Shown in pieces: positions 501 to 12,079 of a stretch of 64,000 nucleotides of DNA; the first letter of the stretch is position 1; the number at the start of each line of letters is the position of its first letter. This DNA comes from Cupriavidus necator (GTDB lineage: Bacteria > Pseudomonadota > Gammaproteobacteria > Burkholderiales > Burkholderiaceae): assembly GCF_013141915.1 (NCBI RefSeq), contig NZ_SROX01000001.1, forward strand, positions 248,001-312,000, given 5' to 3'. The notes under the pieces are model-generated. The model was given only the letters and a program-made list of their open reading frames with translations. It was not told where the DNA came from and did not search any database. Position numbers and translations under genes: made by a program.

Positions 501-514
501 TCATATATATGAGT
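501..514. promoter_or_regulatory. Candidate operator: 12-bp palindrome TCATATATATGA
   Basis: TCATATATATGA is a perfect palindrome at 501-512, about 70 bases before the lyase small-subunit start. Its right half continues as TATATGAGT (506-514), which recurs upstream of the GntR-family gene at 5227-5235. One short motif before both the operon and its likely regulator suggests a GntR operator, but binding is inferred. Confidence 0.45.
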
Positions 515-580
515 TGGTTGACATGGATGAATCGAGCGCCTAACATGACTTCACGCACGACCCACAGAGAGGAGACAACG

Positions 581-862
581 ATGATTCACGTAGTGCTTCA
601 TGACGCCAAGGACACCGTCGCAGTGGCCGTGGTGGAAGGGATCCAGCCGGGCACGCAGCTCAACGCCTGGATCATGGATGAAGACAAGGTCGTCACGGTG
701 ACCGCACTGCAGCCGATTCCCATCGGCCACAAGGTGGCGCTGCGCGACATGGATGTGAACGAGACGGTCTACAAGTACGGCATCGACATCGGCAAGGTGG
801 TCGCCCCGATCAAGGCCGGCGAACACGCCCACGTCCACAACATCAAGACCAAGCGCTGGTAA
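581..862 (+). CDS. suyA: Small (SAF-domain) subunit of a UxaA-family lyase, SuyA-like sulfolactate sulfo-lyase
   Basis: A 93-residue protein made almost only of an SAF domain (MIHVVLHDAKDTVAVAVVEG at the start, VVAPIKAGEHAHVHN and KTKRW at the end). In altronate dehydratase (UxaA) this domain is fused to the large domain; here it is a separate gene, as in (R)-sulfolactate sulfo-lyase SuyAB, which eliminates sulfite from sulfolactate to give pyruvate. The start at 581 has a strong ribosome-binding site (GAGAGGAGACAACG). An in-frame start at 509 is possible but would add a non-conserved leader. The large subunit follows after 84 bases. The SuyA assignment rests on resemblance and on the neighbours; a split altronate-type dehydratase is the alternative. 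Confidence 0.7.
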   Translation: MIHVVLHDAKDTVAVAVVEGIQPGTQLNAWIMDEDKVVTVTALQPIPIGHKVALRDMDVNETVYKYGIDIGKVVAPIKAGEHAHVHNIKTKRW

Positions 863-946
863 GCCCGGCGCGCCGCCCCTGCGGCCGCCCGACGCTTCCT
901 GCCCGCTTTCCATCCCGCTTCCATCCGCTTCCCGAGGATCCACGTC

Positions 947-2122
947 ATGTCCGTGATCGACCAAAACACCACCTTCTGGGGCTACCGCCGCGACAATGGC
1001 CGCGTCGGTGTCCGCAACCACGTCATCATCCTGCCGCTGGACGACCTGTCCAACGCCGCCGCCGAGGCCGTCGCCGCCGCCATCAAGGGCACCATGGCGA
1101 TTCCCCACCCCTACGGCCGCCTGCAGTTCGGGCCGGACCTAGACCTGCATTTCCGCACGCTGATCGGCGCCGGCAGCAATCCCAACGTCGCCGCGGTGGT
1201 GGTGATCGGCATCGAGGACGGCTGGACCAAGAAAGTCGTCGACGGCATCGCCCAGACCGGCAAGCCGGTGGTCGGATTCGGCATCGAGGGCCACGGCGAC
1301 CACGACACCATCATGCGCGCTTCGAAGGCGGCGCGCGAATTCGTGCAGTACGCCACCGCGCTGCACCGCGTCGAGTGCCCGATCAACGAGTTGTGGGTCT
1401 CGACCAAGTGCGGCGAGTCGGACACCACTTCGGGCTGCGGCGCCAACCCTACCGTCGGCAACGCCTTCGACAAACTGCACCCGCTCGGCACCACGCTGGT
1501 GTTCGGCGAGACCTCGGAGCTGACCGGCGGCGAGCATATCGTCGCGGCACGCTGCGCCAACGACGATGTGCGCCACCAGTTCATGGCGATGTTCGAGCGC
1601 TACCAGGGCATGATTGACCGCTGGAAGACGTCGGACCTGTCCGAGTCGCAGCCGACCAAGGGCAATATCGCCGGCGGCCTGACCACCATCGAAGAAAAGG
1701 CGCTGGGCAATATCCAGAAGATCGGCAAGAAATGCACCGTCGACGGCGTGCTCGACAAGGCCGAGGCGCCGACGCATCCGGGCCTGTGGTTCATGGACTC
1801 GTCTTCCGCCGCGGCGGAGATGGTCACGCTGTGCGCGGCCGCCGGCTATGTGGTGCACTTCTTCCCGACCGGGCAGGGCAACGTGATCGGCAATCCGATC
1901 GTTCCGGTGATCAAGCTGTGCGCCAACCCGCGCACCGTGCGCCTGATGAGCGAGCACATGGACGTCGACTGCTCGGGCCTGCTGCAGCGCGAGCAGACCC
2001 TCGACCAGACCGGCGACAAGCTGCTGGAATGCATGCTGGCCACCATCAACGGCCGCTGGACCGCGGCCGAGGCGCTCGGGCATCGCGAGTTCGTGCTGAC
2101 CCGCATCCACGAGTCGGCATGA
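947..2122 (+). CDS. suyB: Large subunit of a UxaA-family lyase, SuyB-like sulfolactate sulfo-lyase
   Basis: A 391-residue cytoplasmic enzyme of the altronate dehydratase (UxaA) C-terminal family. Visible signatures are [19 protein letters not shown] at the N terminus, [20 protein letters not shown] near 154-173, [19 protein letters not shown] in the middle and [19 protein letters not shown] near the C terminus. The family uses a metal or iron-sulfur centre for beta-elimination. Together with the separate SAF subunit and two stereochemically distinct dehydrogenases downstream, sulfolactate sulfo-lyase is the best reading. Its TGA stop overlaps the ATG of the next gene (ATGATG at 2119), so translation is probably coupled. 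Confidence 0.72.
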
Positions 2123-3057
2123 TGAAGCGCATCTGCATCAGCGAGTTCATGGACCCGGCCGCGGTGCAGGCGCTGACCCCCGGCTTCGACCTGCGCTACG
2201 AGCCGGGCTGGGTGGATCGCCGCGCCGACCTGCTCGAGGTCCTGGACGGCGCGCACGCGCTGGTGGTGCGCAACCGCACCCAGGTGGACGCGGCGCTGCT
2301 GGCCCACGCGCCGGCCTTGCGGGTGGTCGGGCGGCTCGGCGTGGGGCTGGACAACATCGACGTCGCCGCCTGCCGCGATCGCGGCATCCGCGTGATTCCC
2401 GCCGCCGGCGCCAATGCGCGCTCAGTGGCGGAGTACGTGGTGACCACGGCCGCCGTGCTGCTGCGTGGCGCCTATCTGTCCAGCACCGAGGTGGCCGATG
2501 GCCAGTGGCCGCGCGCCCGGCTGTCGGAGGGCAGGGAGGCGCTCGGCAAGACGCTTGGCCTGATCGGCTTTGGCGATATTGGGCGCCAGACCGCGGCGCT
2601 GGCGCGCGCCTTCGGCATGGAAGTGATTGCCTGCGATCCGATGCTGCCGGCCGATGATCCGGTCTGGTCCGCCACCGGCGTGGCCTGCGTGCCGCTCGAC
2701 GCGCTGCTGGCGCGGGCCGACGCGGTCAGCCTGCACGTGCCGCTGGTGGAGGCCACCCGCAACCTGATCGATGTCGGCCGCCTGGCCGTGATGAAGTCCG
2801 GCGCGGTGCTGGTCAACACCGCGCGCGGCGGCGTGGTCGATGAGGCAGCGCTGGCCGACGCACTGCGCGCCGGGCACCTGGGCGGCGCGGCGCTGGACGT
2901 GTTTGCCAGCGAGCCGCTGCCCGCCGGCAGCACGCTGCGGGGCGTGCCCAACCTGATCCTGACCCCCCACATCGGCGGCGTGACGCGCGAAGCCAATGCG
3001 CGCGTGTCGATGATGATCGCGCGCGAGGTGCGCCAGTCGCTGGAGCAGATGCCATGA
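2119..3057 (+). CDS. slcC: D-isomer-specific 2-hydroxyacid dehydrogenase, SlcC-like
   Basis: A 312-residue NAD-dependent dehydrogenase. The NAD-binding motif is [15 protein letters not shown]; catalytic blocks are [14 protein letters not shown] (Arg), then a Glu region ending DVFASEPLP, and [15 protein letters not shown] (His). In known sulfolactate degraders a PGDH-type enzyme of this family (SlcC) oxidises (S)-sulfolactate to sulfopyruvate, and ComC then reduces it to the (R) form used by SuyAB. The start at 2119 overlaps the preceding stop; ATG at 2122 is an equally possible start. The open frame runs further upstream inside the lyase gene, but that part is out-of-frame shadow. A generic glycerate or phosphoglycerate role is the alternative. 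Confidence 0.7.
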
Positions 3058-4076
3058 GCCGGATTGCATTGCATGAACTGGAGCGCGTGGCCGCCGCCGG
3101 CCTGCGTCGTGCCGGGGCCAGCGCCCGGCAGGCGCAGGCGACCGCGGCGGCGCTGGTACGGGCCGATGCGGCGGGACTGCCGTCGCACGGGGTCTCGCGC
3201 GTGCCGATGTACGTGGCGCACCTGCGGCATGACCGGGTCGACGGCAACGCCGAGCCGGCGGTGCGCGGCACGCGCGCCAGCGCGGTGGTCGTCGATGCCG
3301 GCTGCGGCTTTGCCTTCGCCGCGTGCGACCTTGCCATCGCCGAGGCGATGCAGCGCGCGCGGGAGACCGGCGTCGGCGTGGCCGCGGTGACCAACAGCCA
3401 CCACTTCGGCGCTGCCGCGCTGCCGCTCGAGGCCGTGGCGCGCGCCGGCATGGTGGGCATCGCCATGGGCAACTCGCCCGCGGCCATGCCGGCCTGGGGC
3501 GGCAAGCGGCCGCTGTTCGGCACCAACCCGATTGCGGCGGTATTTCCGCGCCAGGGCCATGCGCCGGTGGTGATCGACCTGTCGCTGTCCGAGGTCGCGC
3601 GCGGCAAGATCATGGTGGCGGCGAAGCAGGGCAAGCCGATTCCGCTCGGATGGGCGCTCGATGAAGCAGGGCAGCCGACCACCGATGCCGAGGCTGCGCT
3701 GCGCGGCTCGATGCTGCCGGCCGGCGGCGTCAAGGGCGCGATGCTGGCGCTGCTGGTCGAATTGCTGGTGACGTCGCTGGCCGGCGCGCAGTTCGGCGCC
3801 GAGGCGGACTCTTTCTTCAGCGATGCGGGCAACCGGCCGCGCATCGGCCAGCTGTTTTTCGTGATGGACCCGGGCGCCTTCGCCGGCTCGCAGGTCTACG
3901 CCGCGCGGGTTGAAGCGCTGCTGGCGGTGATGCTGGAAGACGAGGGCACGCGCGTGCCCGGCGCCCGCCGCGAGTCGGCACAGGCCGAGGCCGCTGCGCG
4001 CGGCGCTGAAGTGCCCGATGCACTGTGGCGCGAACTGCAATCGCTCGCGGGCGTGGAGGCTGGCGCGCCGCATTGA
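3054..4076 (+). CDS. comC: Malate/L-lactate dehydrogenase family (Ldh_2) oxidoreductase, ComC-like
   Basis: A 340-residue NAD(P)H-dependent oxidoreductase of the Ldh_2 family, which is unrelated in fold to classical lactate dehydrogenases. Typical blocks are SHGVSRVPMYV (about 43-53, with the conserved His), VAAVTNSHHFGAAALPLE (about 106-123) and MGNSPAAMPAWGGKRPLFG before the PIA loop. (R)-sulfolactate dehydrogenase ComC belongs to this family and supplies or oxidises (R)-sulfolactate. The ATG overlaps the upstream stop by four bases (ATGA), so the lyase and both dehydrogenases form one tightly coupled operon. Other members act on malate, lactate or ureidoglycolate, so the substrate is inferred from context. 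Confidence 0.72.
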   Translation: MSRIALHELERVAAAGLRRAGASARQAQATAAALVRADAAGLPSHGVSRVPMYVAHLRHDRVDGNAEPAVRGTRASAVVVDAGCGFAFAACDLAIAEAMQRARETGVGVAAVTNSHHFGAAALPLEAVARAGMVGIAMGNSPAAMPAWGGKRPLFGTNPIAAVFPRQGHAPVVIDLSLSEVARGKIMVAAKQGKPIPLGWALDEAGQPTTDAEAALRGSMLPAGGVKGAMLALLVELLVTSLAGAQFGAEADSFFSDAGNRPRIGQLFFVMDPGAFAGSQVYAARVEALLAVMLEDEGTRVPGARRESAQAEAAARGAEVPDALWRELQSLAGVEAGAPH

Positions 4077-4132
4077 TTTCCTCACAACGGACCCACGCCA
4101 GAGGGGCCGACCACAACTACCGGAGACAAACC

Positions 4133-5149
4133 ATGGATCGACGCTTGATTCGCGGCGCGCGCAGGCACCTGGCCCGCGCGCTCCTAGCCTTGTCCGCAGT
4201 ATCGGCCCTGGCCGCGCTGGCGCCGCCCGCCGCCGCGCAGGGCGGCAGCGATGCCGCCGCAGATTATCCGAACAAGCCGATCCGGTATGTCGTGCCCTTC
4301 GCGGCCGGCGGCCTGACCGACATCATGGCGCGCATGGTCGGCCACCAGCTCTCCGAAGAGTGGAAAAAGCCCATCGTGGTGGACAACCGACCCGGCGGCA
4401 ATGCCAACATCGGCGCCGAGCAGGTTGCCAAGGCGCCGCCCGACGGCTACACCTGGCTCGCGGTCACGCTGACGCACGCGTCCAACGTGACCTTGTTTCC
4501 CAAGCTGCCGTTCAGCATGCAGAAGGACCTGGTGCCGGTGGCGCGCATCGCCTCGTCGCCGATGATGGTGGTGGTGCCCGCGAATTCGCCGATCAAGTCG
4601 ATGAAAGACCTGGCCGCTGCCGCGCAGAAGTCGAAGCTCAACGCCGGCTCCAGCGGCAACGGCACCCCGCCGCACCTGACGCTGGCCTTGTTCGAAAGCC
4701 AGACCCGGACCAGCTTCACCCACGTGCCGTACAAGGGCGGGGCGCCGTCGATGACCGACCTGATCGGCGGCCAGATCGACGTGGTCTTCTCCAACTTTCC
4801 CGAGTCGCTCGCCTATGTGAAGGGCGGCAAGCTGCGCGCGCTGGCGGTGACCACGCGCGAGCGCCATCCGCTGTTGCCCGACGTCCCCACCGTCGCCGAG
4901 GCCGGCTATCCGGACCTGATCGTCGAGAACTGGACCGGCCTGATGATGCCGGCCGGCACGCCCCGGCCGATCGTCGACAAGGTCGCCGGCTCGGTCGCGC
5001 GCATGCTGGCCGCCGAGTCGGTGCGCGGGCGCATCGTCACCGCGGGCTTCAGCCCCGCGGCCGGCGGCACGCCTTTCGCCGACTACTTCAGCGGCGAGGT
5101 GACGCGCTGGGCCCGGCTGATCGAGGAGAAGCAAATCCGGGTCGAATGA
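4133..5149 (+). CDS. Bug/TctC-family periplasmic substrate-binding protein
   Basis: A 338-residue exported receptor with a signal peptide (LLALSAVSALAALAPPAAAQ) followed by the family opening YPNKPIRYVVPFAAGG, and later GNGTPPHLTLALF, FTHVPYKGGAPSMTDLIGGQ and LPDVPTVAEAGYPDL. Such proteins bind small carboxylates in the periplasm for tripartite tricarboxylate transporters (TctABC); the sulfolactate transporter SlcHFG has one as SlcH. No TctA or TctB membrane gene is in the window. ATG at 4133 is preceded by CGGAGACAAACC. Fifty-six bases separate it from the ComC-like gene, so it is probably the last gene of that operon and its ligand is likely the same organic acid. Confidence 0.9.
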   Translation: MDRRLIRGARRHLARALLALSAVSALAALAPPAAAQGGSDAAADYPNKPIRYVVPFAAGGLTDIMARMVGHQLSEEWKKPIVVDNRPGGNANIGAEQVAKAPPDGYTWLAVTLTHASNVTLFPKLPFSMQKDLVPVARIASSPMMVVVPANSPIKSMKDLAAAAQKSKLNAGSSGNGTPPHLTLALFESQTRTSFTHVPYKGGAPSMTDLIGGQIDVVFSNFPESLAYVKGGKLRALAVTTRERHPLLPDVPTVAEAGYPDLIVENWTGLMMPAGTPRPIVDKVAGSVARMLAAESVRGRIVTAGFSPAAGGTPFADYFSGEVTRWARLIEEKQIRVE

Positions 5150-6076: not shown

Positions 6077-6934
6077 TCAGGCGAGGGAGATCATGCGCAG
6101 CACCGCAGCCGCCAGGTCCCCATTGGGATCGCCGAGCAGATCCACGGCATCGAAATGATGGCCGCGCTCCTGCACTACCACCTGCACGTCGAAGCCGCAT
6201 TCGCCCAGCAGCGCCTGGTATTCGCGCTGCAGCCGGTGGTACTCCGGCGATTCATCGCCGCCGACGGTAAGGATCATGGGCAGCCTGATTTTCGGCACAT
6301 GGTGGACAGGGCTGTAACGGGCGACGTCCGCCGCGGTCAGGCCGACCACCTGGTTGAGATAGCACAGCCGGATCGGCTCCAGGTCATACAACCCGCTGAT
6401 CGCGCATCCACCCTTGAGGATGTCCGCCGGAACGCCGAAGGCGGCCCACTCCGTTCCCGCCAGCGTGGCGGTGAGATGACCACCGGCTGAATGGCCGGAC
6501 ACGAAGATGCGCCGCGGATCGAATCCCAGTTCGGCGGCATGGCGGTACAGCCATGCCACGGCCTCCTGGTTGTCGCGCACGATTTCGGCCATGCCCACGT
6601 CCGGAGCCAGGCGGTAGTTCACCACGGCAACGTTGATGTCGCGCTGCAGGTAAGGGGCGGCAACGAAGCTGAAGTCGGACTTGTCCAGCGATTGCCAATA
6701 GCCGCCATGAATGAAGACCAGCAACGGGCGCTCGCGTGAGGCCGCGGGGAAGAAGTCCAGCGACTGCTTGGCGTGCATGCCATAGGCAAGATCCGGCTTG
6801 ACCGGATGGTCGCGACGGAACGCGGCGCTGGTATCGTCCCATCGCTTGAAGATGTCCTGGAACCCGGGGATTCCGGCCCTGACGTTGTACTGGTTGTCCA
6901 GTTCTTCCTGATTGAAGTTTCGATACACTGACAT
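6077..6934 (-). CDS. Alpha/beta hydrolase, arylformamidase-like
   Basis: A 285-residue serine hydrolase with the oxyanion motif FIHGGYWQSLDKSDF, the nucleophile elbow FVSGHSAGGHL, a later acid region (TVGGDESPEY) and a C-terminal His (ERGHHFDAVD). HGGYW followed by GHSAGG is typical of the kynurenine-formamidase-like branch, which hydrolyses amides or esters of small molecules. There is no signal peptide. ATG at 6934 has GGAG ten bases upstream; longer in-frame starts run into the divergent regulator gene and are not supported. It is transcribed away from the AraC/RidA/PurA-paralogue genes and is probably part of the same pathway. The substrate is unknown. Confidence 0.82.
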   Translation of the reverse strand: MSVYRNFNQEELDNQYNVRAGIPGFQDIFKRWDDTSAAFRRDHPVKPDLAYGMHAKQSLDFFPAASRERPLLVFIHGGYWQSLDKSDFSFVAAPYLQRDINVAVVNYRLAPDVGMAEIVRDNQEAVAWLYRHAAELGFDPRRIFVSGHSAGGHLTATLAGTEWAAFGVPADILKGGCAISGLYDLEPIRLCYLNQVVGLTAADVARYSPVHHVPKIRLPMILTVGGDESPEYHRLQREYQALLGECGFDVQVVVQERGHHFDAVDLLGDPNGDLAAAVLRMISLA

Positions 6935-7072
6935 TACATTTGGCTCCAGACTGTGGGATCGGGGCTTCGATTCCATGGGGGTCGTTGCGACGCTTGTCGC
7001 GTCCGGCCAAAGATACGTATCCGCGTCTTGCTGCGCGCGCCGCCAGATGACAACCCCTATCGCAAAGACGCC

Positions 7073-7858
7073 ATGTTCGGAAAGAGCGAAAACCGCGACG
7101 ACTACCAGGCCATCGACCGGCCGGTCGGAGGCATGGCGCGCAAGCTGAAGGACGGCCTCTATATCGGCGCGCATTCGCATCCGCGCGGCCAGCTGATCTA
7201 TGCCTATGTCGGAGCCATCCTGGTGACCACCGACTTCGGCTCCTGGGTGGTCCCGCCCCAGCGCGCCGTCTGGGTGCCGTGCAACGTCGAACACGCCATG
7301 CAGGCGTGCGGCGACGTGGAGATGCGCACGGTCTATGTCCGCGCAGATGCTGTTCCCGCCGAGTTGCGCGGCTGTTGCGTGGTCGCGGTGCCGCCGCTGC
7401 TGCGCGAGCTGATCTCGGCCGCGGTGCGCATGCCGCTGGACTATGAAGAAATCGGCCGCGACGGCCTGGTGGTGCAGCTTCTGCTGCACGAACTGCGTCC
7501 GCTGTCGGTGGTCCCGCTGCATCTCCCGATGCCCAGGGATCCGCGCCTGGGCAAGATCTGCGCGAAGATCCTCGAGGATCCCTCGGACGAGACCTCGGTA
7601 CAGGCGTGGAGCCGCTCGGTTGGCGCCAGCGAACGAACCATCATCCGCCTGTTTCCGGAAGAAACGGGCATGACCTACAGCCGCTGGAAGCAGCAGGCCC
7701 GGTTGATGGCCGCGGTCCGCCTGCTTGCCGAGGGCTGCCATGTCACCGACATCGCCCTGCAGCTCGGATACGAAAGTCCGAGCGCATTCAGCGCCATGTT
7801 CAGGCGAGCGCTTGGCATGACCCCCACCGAGTATTTCCGCGACCGGGCCGGCGACTAG
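7073..7858 (+). CDS. AraC-family regulator with N-terminal cupin domain
   Basis: A 261-residue regulator. Residues about 25-120 form a cupin-like sensor (GAHSHPRGQLIYAYVGAI, later VVPPQRAVWVPCNVEHAM). The C-terminal third holds the two helix-turn-helix units of AraC proteins (VQAWSRSVGASERTIIRLF and VTDIALQLGYESPSAFSAMF, then LGMTPTEYFR). ATG at 7073 gives the usual family length; the frame is open back to 6953, but that leader is not conserved in type. It is divergent from the hydrolase gene across about 140 bases and lies upstream of the RidA gene, so it probably controls both units. Confidence 0.87.
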   Translation: MFGKSENRDDYQAIDRPVGGMARKLKDGLYIGAHSHPRGQLIYAYVGAILVTTDFGSWVVPPQRAVWVPCNVEHAMQACGDVEMRTVYVRADAVPAELRGCCVVAVPPLLRELISAAVRMPLDYEEIGRDGLVVQLLLHELRPLSVVPLHLPMPRDPRLGKICAKILEDPSDETSVQAWSRSVGASERTIIRLFPEETGMTYSRWKQQARLMAAVRLLAEGCHVTDIALQLGYESPSAFSAMFRRALGMTPTEYFRDRAGD

Positions 7859-8006
7859 GCGTATTCGCTGCGGGTTGGCATCTGCCAGACATCAACTGGC
7901 GTCAGGACGCGCATCGAGGGCAGGGCCGTGCGGCACAGTCTGGATGCCGCCGGATGACCCGCACCGTGCTCGCTCCGTCGGCATTTGTTCAAGTCGAGGA
8001 GTGAAT

Positions 8007-8471
8007 ATGTCAGTGATGGATCGTATCCGGGCGGCAGGCATCGTCCTGCCCGCCGCAGAAATGCCCAGGGCACTTTATGTCCCGTACACGCTGCACCATG
8101 GTTTGCTGACGATCTCAGGCCAGCTGCCGCTGCAGGACGGCAAGCCCATGTTCGTCGGCAAGGTGCCCGGCACGGTCAGCGTTGAAGCGGCGCAAGCGGC
8201 GGCGCGGCTTTGCCTGGCCAACCTGCTGGGCTGGGCCACCGCCGCGACCGATGGCAATCTGGAGCGGATCCGGGGCATCGTGCGGGTAGGCGGCTACGTC
8301 GCAGCCGACCCGGGCTTCGACGATGCGCCGCGGGTGATCAATGCTGCGTCGGAACTGCTCAACCAGATCTTTGCCGAGCGGGGCCGCCATGCCCGGCTGG
8401 CGCTCGGCGTGGCGAGTCTTCCGTTCGGGGTCCCGGTGGAAATCGAAGCCACCTTTGCGCTGGATGCCTAG
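8007..8471 (+). CDS. RidA (YjgF/YER057c) family protein
   Basis: A 154-residue RidA-fold protein: LTISGQLPLQDGKPMFVGK, then an alpha-helical segment with LCLANLLGWATAATDGNLERI and VRVGGYVAADPGFDD, and RLALGVASLPFGVPVEIEATF at the C terminus. Many RidA proteins deaminate reactive enamines or imines, and members inside catabolic clusters hydrolyse pathway intermediates. The Arg of the classical imine-deaminase site (ARxxxxVxxLPxxxxVE) appears as ARLALGVASLPFGVPVE, so deaminase-type chemistry is possible. The start has GAGGAG nearby. It is two bases from the PurA paralogue, so both are likely co-translated. Confidence 0.87.
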   Translation: MSVMDRIRAAGIVLPAAEMPRALYVPYTLHHGLLTISGQLPLQDGKPMFVGKVPGTVSVEAAQAAARLCLANLLGWATAATDGNLERIRGIVRVGGYVAADPGFDDAPRVINAASELLNQIFAERGRHARLALGVASLPFGVPVEIEATFALDA

Positions 8472-8473
8472 CC

Positions 8474-9949
8474 ATGGGCGCCGCGACAAAGGCCGGCTAC
8501 GCCGACGTCCTGGTCGGCCTGCAGTATGGCGACGAGGGCAAGGCCCGGGTCGTCGATCACCTCGCCGCCGGGTATGACGTGATTGCGCGCTTCAACGGCG
8601 GGGCCAACGCCGGGCATACCATCGCCACGCCCGACGGCCCCTTGCGGCTGCGGCAGGTGCCTTCCGGCGTGCTGCATCCCGGCGTTGCGCTTTACATCGG
8701 CTCGGGCTGCGTGGTCGGCTTGCAGCAGCTGGCCGCCGAGATCGCGATGTTGGCCGCCCAAGGCATCAGCCTTGACGGGCGGCTGACCATCAGCGACCGG
8801 TGTCCGCTGGTTCAGCCGCGCCACGTGCTGGCGGACCGCCGCGATGGCGCGCGGATCGGCACCACCGGCAATGGCATCGGTCCTTGCTATGCCGATCTGG
8901 CGGCGCGGATGCAGGGCTCCGAGCGCGTCGCATTCCAGTTGCGCGACCTGCTGTGCGACGATAGCCGCGTGTTCGAACAGATGACCCGGCTGGCGGGCCG
9001 GGACGGTGACGATGGGGACGACATCGCGGCGATGGTGGACGGTATGCGCCGCGCTTGGGCAGCGATTCGTCCGTTCGTGACGGACGATGCTGTCGCGCTG
9101 TTGCGGCGGGTCGAAGCCGGTGCCCGGGTCCTGTTCGAGGGCGCGCAGTCGGTGATGCTGGACGTGGTGCACGGCGTTCAGCCGTGGGTCACGTCCAGCC
9201 ATACGCTGCCCGCCTATGCCTACGTGGGGGGCGATCTGCCGTGCCGATATCACCGCAAGGCCATCGGCGTGGCCAAGGCCATCGTCTCACGTGTCGGTGG
9301 CGGCCCGTTGCCCACCGAACTGGGCGGGCCCCGTTCCGAGGCGTATTGCGCCGCGGCGGCACACGCGGGCCGCGGCCGCGCCGACGAAGCGGCCAGCCAC
9401 GATCCGCTGGCGCTGCTCGCCGAAGGGGATGCGTTCGCCACCGGCGTGGCTATCCGGATGCTGGCGAAAGAATATGGCACCGGCACCGGCAGGCCCCGGC
9501 GCGTGGGGCTGCTCGACGTTGCACAACTGCGCCTGGCGATACAGCAGGCCGGCGTCGACGAGGTGTATCTCAACAAATGTGACAGCCTGGCGGCCTTCGC
9601 CCACACACCCGAGCACTGCATTCCGGTTGTCGTCGGCGAGACGGGCGGCACAGGTCAGCGCGTGTTGCGCTTTCCGGCGTTCGGCGAGCACGCCATCCCG
9701 ACCGGTGCCGCCTCGCCGCTGCCCCCGCAACTTGAAGCGCTGCTCGAATGGCTCGCGCAGGCCATCGGCCGGCCCTTGCGCGGCATCGGGCTAGGACCGG
9801 AACGCGCGCAGATGCGGCTTCTTGAACCCAACCAGCACACCACACCACACCATGACAAGCACGACCCCTGCCTATCTGCGCAACGAAATGCGCCGGACCG
9901 ACCTGGCCTGGACCGACTGGCCGGCCATCGAAGCCTTCCTGAAAAATGA
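8474..9949 (+). CDS. Adenylosuccinate synthetase paralogue (PurA-like GTP-dependent ligase)
   Basis: A 491-residue PurA-family protein. Residues aligning with the PurA catalytic set are kept: Asp20 and Lys23 in QYGDEGKARVVD, Asn45 and His48 in FNGGANAGHT, the TTGNGIGP loop with an Arg equivalent to PurA Arg143, Gln in FEGAQSVMLD, Thr/Arg/Arg in GTGTGRPRR and the guanine-binding NKCD. Substitutions occur at substrate-facing places: GGH to GGA, TTGRG to TTGNG, ATTGR to GTGTGR. PurA joins Asp to GTP-activated IMP. Here the gene sits with RidA, a hydrolase and a flavin protein, not with purine genes, so a different acceptor or amine donor is likely. Residues after about 451 (GLGPERAQM is the normal PurA end) form a non-family tail that overlaps the next gene by 98 bases. 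Confidence 0.8.
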   Translation: MGAATKAGYADVLVGLQYGDEGKARVVDHLAAGYDVIARFNGGANAGHTIATPDGPLRLRQVPSGVLHPGVALYIGSGCVVGLQQLAAEIAMLAAQGISLDGRLTISDRCPLVQPRHVLADRRDGARIGTTGNGIGPCYADLAARMQGSERVAFQLRDLLCDDSRVFEQMTRLAGRDGDDGDDIAAMVDGMRRAWAAIRPFVTDDAVALLRRVEAGARVLFEGAQSVMLDVVHGVQPWVTSSHTLPAYAYVGGDLPCRYHRKAIGVAKAIVSRVGGGPLPTELGGPRSEAYCAAAAHAGRGRADEAASHDPLALLAEGDAFATGVAIRMLAKEYGTGTGRPRRVGLLDVAQLRLAIQQAGVDEVYLNKCDSLAAFAHTPEHCIPVVVGETGGTGQRVLRFPAFGEHAIPTGAASPLPPQLEALLEWLAQAIGRPLRGIGLGPERAQMRLLEPNQHTTPHHDKHDPCLSAQRNAPDRPGLDRLAGHRSLPEK

Positions 9950-10478
9950 ACTGATCTGCCGGGTTGCGGTGCATGACGCACCGTACCCCTACATTACGGC
10001 GCAGAGCTTCACCTTCACTGGCGACGCGTTCCTGATCCACAGTTCCAGGTTCGGCAAGCTTGCCGCTGCGATCCGGGCGAACCCGCTGGTCACGATCGAA
10101 GTCGACCGGCCCGTGGCCTTGCTGAAGGCGCCGAAGGGCCAGAACACGAGTCTCGAGTATTTCAGCGTCATCGCGCGCTGTGAAGTCCGGTTGCGCGACA
10201 GTACCGAAGCGGTGCGTGCCCACCAGTACCAGGCGCTGGACAAGTTCCGGCCCGAGAAGGACTACACGCCGATCGAGGATGGGGCCGCCAGCCAGATCGT
10301 TGCCTATCGCTGCGAGATCCGTGAGATGAGTGCGAAAAAGCGCATCCTGGCTGACGGACAGTACTCGCCGCCGGGACAGCCGCGCGCGCCATACCTGCGC
10401 TATCCGTTCCAGTCCGGGGCCACGCTGTCCGGCTTGCCGCCGGAGGCATTCGATTCCCACCGGTTTGCGGGAAAGTGA
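9852..10478 (+). CDS. FMN-binding split-barrel protein (pyridoxamine 5'-phosphate oxidase-like)
   Basis: A 208-residue protein of the flavin-binding split-barrel superfamily: AIEAFLKNELICRVAVHD and YPYITAQSFTFTGDAFLIHS at the N terminus, IRANPLVTIEVDRP in the middle and LEYFSVIARCEVRLRDSTEA toward the C-terminal half. The layout is that of NimA-like or PNPOx-like flavin or haem proteins that bind or reduce small molecules. ATG at 9852 is chosen; a TTG at 9822 in frame is also possible. Its 5' end lies inside the tail of the PurA paralogue, and a strong terminator follows 22 bases after the stop, so it is the last gene of the RidA-PurA-like unit. Confidence 0.72.
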   Translation: MTSTTPAYLRNEMRRTDLAWTDWPAIEAFLKNELICRVAVHDAPYPYITAQSFTFTGDAFLIHSSRFGKLAAAIRANPLVTIEVDRPVALLKAPKGQNTSLEYFSVIARCEVRLRDSTEAVRAHQYQALDKFRPEKDYTPIEDGAASQIVAYRCEIREMSAKKRILADGQYSPPGQPRAPYLRYPFQSGATLSGLPPEAFDSHRFAGK

Positions 10479-10500
10479 GGCTCGCCATCGGGTGACACGC

Positions 10501-10528
10501 AGAGGTGCTTCGGCACCTCTTTTTTTTT
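10501..10528 (+). terminator. Rho-independent terminator of the RidA/PurA-like operon
   Basis: Perfect 8-bp stem AGAGGTGC/GCACCTCT with a stable TTCG tetraloop, followed by a run of T to 10528. It lies 22 bases after the stop of the FMN-binding protein gene and separates it from the MFS gene. Confidence 0.93.
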
Positions 10529-10705: not shown

Positions 10706-12079
10706 ATGAAGCACACCCCTCTCGAGCTGATGCGCGTGCGCACCGGCGACCGGCTGGAACGGCTGCCCGTATGCGGCTATCACCGCCTTCTGTTTGCCAT
10801 CATTGCGCTGGCGTTTTTCTTCGACAACCTCGACCTGGCCATGATGACGTACCTGCTGGGCTCGATCCGCTCGGAGTTCGGCCTGACCGCTGCGCAGGCG
10901 GGCATGCTGGGGAGCGCCAGCTTTGTCGGCATGGCCCTCGGTGCGCTCAGCTCCGGGATGATCGCCGACAAGTTCGGGCGCAAGCCCGTGTTCCAGGTCA
11001 GCATGATCATCTGGGGCGTTGGCAGCTATCTCTGTTCCACCGCGAGCCATCCCATGGAACTGGGCGCATATCGGCTCTTGCTTGGGATCGGCATGGGCAT
11101 GGAGTTGCCGCTGGCGCAGACGCTGATGTCGGAATTCATTCCGGCGCGGCAGCGCGGCAAATATCTGGCGCTGATGGACGGCAACTGGCCGATCGCGTTT
11201 ATCTGCGCGGGCCTGATGTCGTACTACGTGCTGAGCGCCTATACCTGGCGCACCATGTTCCTGCTCGGCGCGGTGCCGGCGCTCTTCCTGATCGTGGTGC
11301 GGCGCTTCGTGCCAGAGTCTCCCCGTTGGCTGGAATCGCAGGGACGCCACGCGGAAGCTGCCGAGATCGTCGACCGTATCGAGCAGTCGGTGATGCGGCG
11401 GATGAAGCTCGACACGTTGCCCGAAGTCACCCCCGCGGTCGCTGCGGCGGAGCCGGCCGCATCGGGGCTGCGCGTGCTGTGGTCGCGGGCGTACCGCAGC
11501 CGGACCCTGACCGTCTGGGGGCTGTGGTTCTTTGCCCTGCTGGGGTTCTATGGCCTCAATACATGGATAGGCGCGTTGCTGCAGCAATCCGGTCTGGGCG
11601 TGACCCAGTCCGTGCTGTACACGGTCTATATCTCGATCGGGGGGATTCCGGGCTTCCTGTGGGCGGCGTGGGCGGTGGAGCGCTGGGGACGCAAGCCGGC
11701 CTGCGTGGCGACGCTGGTCGGCGGAGCGTGCATGGTCTTTGTCTATGGCCGCGTCGCCGGCGCGGCACCGGAGCCGCTGGCGCTGTTCCTTTCCGGCGGC
11801 ATGATGCAGTTCTTCATGTTTGGCATGTGGGCGGTGCTCTACACCTACACGCCGGAGCTGTACCCCACGCGCGCGCGCGCCTCGGGCTGCGGCATGGCGT
11901 CGACGGTCGGGCGCCTGGGCTCGCTGCTGGGTCCGGCGCTGGTGGGCCTGGTGCTGCCCGTCGCGGGGCAGGCTGGCGTGTTTGGTCTGGGCGCGCTGTG
12001 TTTCCTTGCCGCGGCGGCGATTGTCTTCCGGTTCGGCATCGAAACCCGCGGCCGTGCGCTGGAAACCATCGCCGACTAA
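10706..12079 (+). CDS. MFS transporter, sugar-porter/metabolite:H+ symporter type
   Basis: A 457-residue inner-membrane protein with about 12 transmembrane segments. Family markers are FFDNLDLAMMTYLLG in the first helix, the loop motif DKFGRKP, PESPRWLESQGR before the central cytoplasmic loop and the second-half motif WGRKPACVA. NiaP-like and aromatic-acid symporters share this build. ATG at 10706 is preceded by ATGGAGACAAG. It stands alone between the terminator at 10501-10528 and the convergent gene at 12132. It may import the substrate of the hydrolase/RidA cluster, but the terminator shows it is a separate unit. Confidence 0.88.
   Translation: MKHTPLELMRVRTGDRLERLPVCGYHRLLFAIIALAFFFDNLDLAMMTYLLGSIRSEFGLTAAQAGMLGSASFVGMALGALSSGMIADKFGRKPVFQVSMIIWGVGSYLCSTASHPMELGAYRLLLGIGMGMELPLAQTLMSEFIPARQRGKYLALMDGNWPIAFICAGLMSYYVLSAYTWRTMFLLGAVPALFLIVVRRFVPESPRWLESQGRHAEAAEIVDRIEQSVMRRMKLDTLPEVTPAVAAAEPAASGLRVLWSRAYRSRTLTVWGLWFFALLGFYGLNTWIGALLQQSGLGVTQSVLYTVYISIGGIPGFLWAAWAVERWGRKPACVATLVGGACMVFVYGRVAGAAPEPLALFLSGGMMQFFMFGMWAVLYTYTPELYPTRARASGCGMASTVGRLGSLLGPALVGLVLPVAGQAGVFGLGALCFLAAAAIVFRFGIETRGRALETIAD

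Follow-up and report, generated by a model that had tools for sequence, protein, structure and literature searches.

The locus under study lies in a window of 64,000 nucleotides of Cupriavidus necator DNA (contig NZ_SROX01000001.1, positions 248,001 to 312,000), the window being the whole stretch that was analysed, and is centred on a gene for a paralogue of adenylosuccinate synthetase (AdSS), here called PurA2. An earlier sequence-only reading had described genes for a hydrolase, an AraC regulator, a RidA protein, a PurA-like protein and a flavin mononucleotide (FMN)-binding protein, closed by a strong terminator; all of these were recovered with open reading frames, Pfam and a stem-loop scan (Table 1), the last protein being PNPOx-like. 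The conserved unit was found to extend beyond the terminator to a gene for a major facilitator superfamily (MFS) transporter and thus comprises six genes, one more than first described. An open reading frame of 554 amino acids starting at 7741 is a mechanical extension of the hydrolase gene, the coordinates in the table being those given by the conserved start. Within the 6.4 kb scanned, five terminator-like sites were found (2.7 in shuffled sequences, sd 1.5); the tabulated one has a stem of 8 pairs and is the sole site with an unbroken T tail.

Table 1. Features of the PurA2 locus in the window, and an example of the second gene setting in which PurA2 occurs.
Feature	Position	Strand	Basis or remark
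Alpha/beta hydrolase (BD-FAE/Abhydrolase_3)	6077..6934	-	Pfam; conserved start; member of unit
AraC-family regulator, divergent from hydrolase gene	7073..7858	+	Pfam AraC; member of unit
RidA-family protein	8007..8471	+	PF14588/PF01042
PurA2, adenylosuccinate synthetase paralogue of separate clade	8474..9949	+	PF00709 (Adenylsucc_synt), tree, alignment
PNPOx-fold protein	9852..10478	+	PF12900
Intrinsic-terminator-like stem-loop (stem 10501-10520) with T run, within conserved unit	10501..10528	+	
MFS transporter, aromatic-acid/H+ symport type, predicted importer	10706..12079	+	
Group-2 example cluster	L021:7831-16596		Pandoraea

The window copy of PurA2 has 491 amino acids and its counterparts in the two near relatives examined (loci L003 and L004) about 458, the stop in both relatives falling within the next gene's ATGA. 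In the window (region 9800-9949) the frame is shifted by a small insertion of a CA-rich repeat, recognised by eye, which gives rise to a longer C terminus that overlaps the start of the PNPOx gene. The ancestral end of PurA2 was probably near 9847, with the last 33 or so amino acids stemming from the frame shift. The region upstream of the unit (window 509-5149) contains genes similar to those for a sulfolactate-type lyase pair, two dehydrogenases and a TctC receptor, the labels being in part assumed. These sulfolactate-type genes and a GntR gene were rejected as members of the unit, being common only to near Cupriavidus loci (L003 and L004, and in part L005).

PurA2 matched PF00709 with 310.5 bits (cut-off 27) over profile positions 1-415 of 416. 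A canonical housekeeping purA was located on another contig of the source genome (G000:C5:152136-153413); it scored 592.6 bits and the window gene 307.6. The phylogeny was calculated with 85 proteins, namely 106 aligned rows less 33, plus the window protein and 11 housekeeping proteins. The 33 rows were left out by hand and consisted of near-copies, four rows from small contigs (L044, L060, L061, L069) and L002, which is the window itself. In the midpoint-rooted tree, the 15 housekeeping PurA proteins were split from all others by a branch with 100/100 support. The window group (group 1, 21 rows) received 87/88 support and formed, with a Pandoraea/Kitasatospora group (group 2) and three actinobacterial genes, a clade supported at 100/99. 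This PurA2 clade is nested in a larger one that also holds proteins of the candidate phyla radiation (CPR), of DPANN and of a few other bacteria, the CPR/DPANN rows having been obtained via short peptides of the window protein. On this tree PurA2 is a lineage separate from housekeeping PurA. The sequence-only reading had named a sole purA grouping with housekeeping PurA as the mark of plain purine biosynthesis; with a second purA on contig C5 and a clade of its own, PurA2 is instead borne out as a paralogue.

Of the genomes behind the loci, 29 were searched for further PF00709 proteins and for purB. In 16 of the 18 that are of CPR/DPANN type (including that of L070, labelled 'archaeon') the PurA2-type protein is the sole PF00709 match, one of the other two having two match rows and one having four. 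The Woesearchaeota genomes G482 and G483 each gave more than one PF00709 match, lower-scoring ones among them. purB scored over its cut-off in 14 of the 18 and adjoins the PurA2-type gene in four (G478, G479, G480 and G482). Judged from this gene context, the wider PurA2-type lineage would be able to do ordinary AdSS work. The lack of a purB-like lyase in the window cluster, which had been noted earlier, stands as an observation and is uninformative either way, because the relatives that were searched carry purB elsewhere.

The AlphaFold model of PurA2 (pLDDT 82.5) had AdSS structures as its best matches: the first 33 Foldseek matches were AdSS, followed by PurZ and DgsS, with 26-31% identity to the top 20. 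Alignment confirmed the residues on which the sequence-only reading had relied. Asp13, His41, Gln224, Lys331 and Asp333 (E. coli numbering here and below) are retained, and the motifs GGA, TTGNG and GTGTGR are present. Sites 13, 16, 38, 40, 41, 127, 129, 143, 273, 298, 303, 305 and 333 are invariant in all 85 rows, and sites 224, 239 and 331 show one exception each. With a mapping of the Helicobacter pylori contacts for inosine monophosphate (IMP) onto E. coli numbering that we assume to be correct, the equivalents of these contacts, phosphate-binding ones included, are also kept in PurA2. The contact list was taken from a report on the H. pylori enzyme (PMC11571797).

The altered motifs had been read as a sign of a new substrate, and this holds for at most one of the three. 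GGA and TTxNG occur across the larger CPR/DPANN-containing clade; since they are found there in sole PurA proteins, some of them encoded beside purB, they are compatible with ordinary AdSS function and do not show a new substrate. GTGTGR is nearly group-specific. At its position 300, Gly stands in 42 of the 44 PurA2 proteins from proteobacteria and actinobacteria, in none of the 15 housekeeping rows (all Val or Thr) and in one of 26 other rows, a Bdellovibrionales sister; L060, outside the 85-row set, also has Gly. Position 300 presumably lies in the loop that binds Asp or hadacidin. Gly300 could mark a changed aspartate site and does not separate a new substrate from resistance. Y235Q and N242H are further group-specific changes. 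Pro304 was rejected as a special change of PurA2 because the housekeeping PurA of the genus has the same Pro.

A scan of the genome contigs of 84,980 species with PurA2 yielded 74 loci. Twenty of these are of the window type (L003-L020, L036 and L041, from Cupriavidus, Paraburkholderia, Pandoraea, Herminiimonas, Caballeronia and Pseudomonas), and all six genes are present in 19, the exception (L005) stopping at a contig end. The gene set proposed in the sequence-only reading is thus a conserved cluster. Variation is minor: ridA and the MFS gene are each split over two frames in L007, as is the MFS gene in L036, where the hydrolase gene lies on the opposite strand. A neighbour census of 17 window-type loci, made with a simple gene caller, found the MFS gene in all 17 and no additional gene family common to more than three loci. 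The six-gene set was also found on a plasmid of Caballeronia zhejiangensis (L138), where genes for an NADP-malic enzyme and a second RidA protein follow the unit (L138:13546-16349). Within the genus, PurA2 was detected in 15 of 60 genomes and the PNPOx gene in 16, which include all 15. Order-wide, class-wide and Actinomycetota draws (1/399, 1/369 and 1/396) gave the query's own genome as the sole match, a result that speaks only for rarity of the genes within those draws.

Clusters with and without PurA2 were compared in a survey of 398 Burkholderiaceae genomes that was made through the PNPOx gene, PurA2 not being used as a query. The PNPOx gene was present in 30 genomes at 31 loci. PurA2 is near full length at 23 of these, cut by a contig edge at one and internally deleted at one, a replicon of Caballeronia NK8; at six no PurA2 gene is present. 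In L175, L177 and L178 short stretches that match PurA2 (weakest in L177) lie between ridA and the PNPOx gene and were taken as remnants; none was found at that place in L152, L173 and L176. In five of the six PurA2-less loci the genes for hydrolase, AraC, RidA, PNPOx and MFS are all retained, L176 being without hydrolase and MFS; with the deleted copy counted in, seven loci are without intact PurA2, of which six have the rest of the unit complete and four show remnants or a deletion. On a tree of five core proteins (27 loci), eight changes are needed to account for PurA2 presence when the truncated copy is scored as absent. A plasmid of Paracoccus carries genes for the hydrolase, three components of a tripartite ATP-independent periplasmic (TRAP) transporter, RidA, PNPOx and AraC, without PurA2 and with TRAP in place of MFS. 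PurA2, the gene of which lies between ridA and that for PNPOx, is accessory, because core clusters persist without it intact in both Burkholderiaceae and Paracoccus. The earlier proposal that activation by guanosine triphosphate (GTP) is part of the chemistry of the cluster itself is not supported by this result. TRAP systems are importers; as one replaces the MFS transporter, the core is most simply seen as a putative uptake and breakdown unit. In the PurA2-less cluster L152, of the same genus, genes for a luciferase-like monooxygenase and a second RidA protein were observed after the MFS gene (L152:11358-12795).

Among the partner proteins, the hydrolase has Lipase 1 (9n8r) and 2pbl as its nearest solved structures, kynurenine formamidase (4e11) being also among them, and is predicted to be an amidase or esterase acting on the imported compound. 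The RidA-family protein shares the Arg of its HAR...LP motif with 3d01 and PA0814, and by eye, against E. coli RidA, it appears to have retained the Arg and Glu that imine hydrolases possess. A conserved Arg of RidA and Rid1-3 is given as the criterion for imine hydrolases in PMC4433059. The PNPOx-like protein matched PF12900 and, weakly, PF01243; PF01613, the family of RutF-type flavin reductases, gave no match to it at E 0.001, and profile comparison of its family with a PaiB-type family gave no support, at a probability of 0.5%. Its best fold matches were tied among FMN proteins, flavin adenine dinucleotide (FAD)/haem proteins and the haem-dependent N-hydroxylamine dehydratase (NohD)/piperazate synthase group. 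H63, T99 and K162/K163 are invariant in 11 rows, with a spacing that, by eye, is roughly like that of the NohD/piperazate synthase active site, for which His, Thr and Lys positions are described in PMC13274692. The MFS protein scored 282.8 bits with TIGR00895, under the cut-off of 418.55.

PurA2 also occurs in a second, biosynthetic-looking setting. In 19 Pandoraea loci and in Kitasatospora L022, genes for SbnA, SbnB, PurA2, an AurF-like N-oxygenase, an ornithine-carbamoyltransferase-like protein, a ThrC-like protein and a DAO-type oxidase follow one another, a flavin-reductase-like gene coming next in the 19 Pandoraea loci. SbnA and SbnB of the example L021 scored over their cut-offs (395.5 against 349.95 and 376.2 against 326.9). 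Four Pandoraea species have both settings: capi (L014/L072), anhela (L017/L073), aquatica (L018/L024) and commovens (L019/L025). The mid-cluster presence of PurA2 in 20 of 20 group-2 loci holds by construction, because the loci were found through PurA2. Three actinobacterial loci (L033, L037 and L074) carry PurA2 without the group-2 genes; SbnA over its cut-off was absent from these three genomes and present in four others, so PurA2 occurs also without the group-2 cluster. Resistant target copies are known in biosynthetic gene clusters. If the group-2 cluster makes an N-oxidised derivative of diaminopropionate, its product could be an aspartate analogue.

As the most likely reading, held with a little less than even confidence, we propose that PurA2 is a functional AdSS isozyme that protects the synthesis of adenosine monophosphate (AMP) while a compound that inhibits AdSS is taken up and broken down. 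Its separate clade, the retained catalytic and IMP residues, purifying selection, the constant place in the operon, the repeated loss of PurA2 from clusters that mostly keep their other genes, the near-specific Gly300 and the occurrence of the clade in a biosynthetic-looking cluster speak for this reading. The MFS protein would import this compound, which would then be degraded by the alpha/beta hydrolase, the RidA-family imine hydrolase and the PNPOx-fold redox or haem protein under the control of the AraC regulator. The compound or an intermediate would block housekeeping PurA at its aspartate site, and PurA2, as a true AdSS that uses IMP, Asp and GTP, would be insensitive and would keep AMP synthesis running. 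Hadacidin is an N-hydroxy compound. It is also a natural AdSS inhibitor that is competitive against Asp, as stated in PMC6136348. A more specific version, in which the operon degrades hadacidin-type N-hydroxylated, aspartate-like inhibitors, is improbable as it stands: the hydrolase would deacylate the nitrogen, a PNPOx-fold haem dehydratase would give an imine and RidA an oxo acid, PurA2 would be the insensitive target, and the group-2 cluster would make such a compound from diaminopropionate.

Several results weigh against protection by an insensitive isozyme. PurA2 falls under the NCBIfam equivalog cut-offs for AdSS (280.2 against 402 for NF002223, 249.3 against 395.55 for TIGR00184). The housekeeping rows of the tree come from few phyla: apart from one Desulfuromonadaceae-type genome, they are proteobacterial or actinobacterial. 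For the CPR/DPANN assemblies no completeness is stated. Position 300 is Val in two of the 21 group-1 rows; with Val or Thr in housekeeping PurA as well, Gly300 is not proven to be a resistance change. Repeated loss of PurA2 would be costly were the compound truly toxic, and genome G1539, which holds cluster L176, has the housekeeping purA only. The ratio of nonsynonymous to synonymous substitution rates (dN/dS) of PurA2 is the highest or second highest among the six genes in all five pairwise comparisons, which also fits functional drift.

Alternatively, PurA2 could perform a pathway step with a non-IMP substrate: GTP would phosphorylate the carbonyl of an intermediate, to which an amine (Asp or another) would then be joined. 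Its fixed place between ridA and the PNPOx gene, the scores below the equivalog cut-offs and the group-specific Y235Q, N242H and Gly300 speak for such a step, as would the mid-cluster position in group 2 but for the way in which those loci were found. The persistence of core clusters without intact PurA2, some of them with remnants, argues against it, as do the conserved IMP contacts and the occurrence of two of the three diagnostic changes in the sole PurA of CPR/DPANN genomes, and we regard it as unlikely.

We rate as similarly unlikely that PurA2 is an ordinary extra AdSS giving dosage or altered regulation without resistance, for example where the pathway drains GTP, Asp or AMP. The conserved catalytic residues would allow this, and the genus does hold other extra purA copies, chiefly in genomes that lack the cluster: near-full-length copies of canonical type were found in at least six of the 60 genomes, five of them without the PNPOx gene. 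Among five PurA2-less genomes searched, three (G029, G1441 and G1570) have such a copy, G1296 has a group-2 PurA2 and the fifth is G1539; as extra canonical copies also occur without the PNPOx gene, they do not clearly compensate for the absence of PurA2. Against dosage stand the tie of PurA2 to one operon within the genus and the retention of a far-removed clade instead of a copy of the local gene. A third, canonical-type purA was observed at L181-L184, L185:11568-13214 and L186:9515-10801 (the genus and two other Burkholderiaceae genomes), preceded by a divergent LysR gene in five of the six examined.

It is very improbable that PurA2 has lost its use and is decaying as a passenger gene: constraint is weaker than in most neighbour genes, four relatives have remnants or a deletion and the window copy has its C-terminal frame shift, but with pairwise dN/dS values of 0.14-0.21 PurA2 is under purifying selection, its catalytic sites are invariant across phyla and it is near full length at most of the Burkholderiaceae loci.

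The deep AdSS lineage PurA2 thus marks two unrelated small-molecule gene sets. One is the uptake/degradation-like unit, which occurs in Burkholderiaceae and a few other bacteria and is also carried by plasmids; the other is the biosynthetic-looking Pandoraea/Kitasatospora cluster. If PurA2 is an insensitive target copy, as favoured here, its gene would help to locate natural AdSS inhibitors as well as the enzymes that destroy them. Motif changes in a paralogue need not signal a new substrate; two of the three seen here are clade markers.

In the literature searched, no published description of PurA2, of the six-gene unit or of the group-2 cluster was identified. Among known proteins, PurA (PF00709, EC 6.3.4.4) is matched by PurA2 over its whole length and in fold, GTP, IMP and catalytic residues; PurA2 differs from it in its low identity, its separate clade, its scores under the equivalog cut-offs and its presence in addition to a full housekeeping gene. 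Phage PurZ and DgsS resemble PurA2 in being PurA paralogues with a specialised role. The PurZ type was rejected for PurA2 (94.5 bits with NF038379, cut-off 300), and the catalytic Asp that PurA2 keeps is presumably replaced in PurZ. The PNPOx-like protein is 12% identical to NohD/piperazate synthase, a match tied with FMN and FAD/haem proteins. The Rut pathway, to which the cluster had been likened, likewise combines RidA and an alpha/beta hydrolase with a flavin-type protein close to a transporter. This likeness in parts stands, and the L152 variant is adjoined by a luciferase-like monooxygenase, which we take to be of the family of RutA; a Rut-like pathway is nevertheless unsupported, as the unit has PF12900 instead of PF01613 and no other gene family conserved nearby. 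PMC12616698 notes a fungal gene cluster that includes an AdSS homologue. From resistant target copies in antimetabolite clusters PurA2 differs in being bacterial, in lying mainly in an uptake/degradation-like unit and in a resistance that is here presumed; it resembles them as a duplicate of an essential target that is tied to a small-molecule cluster.

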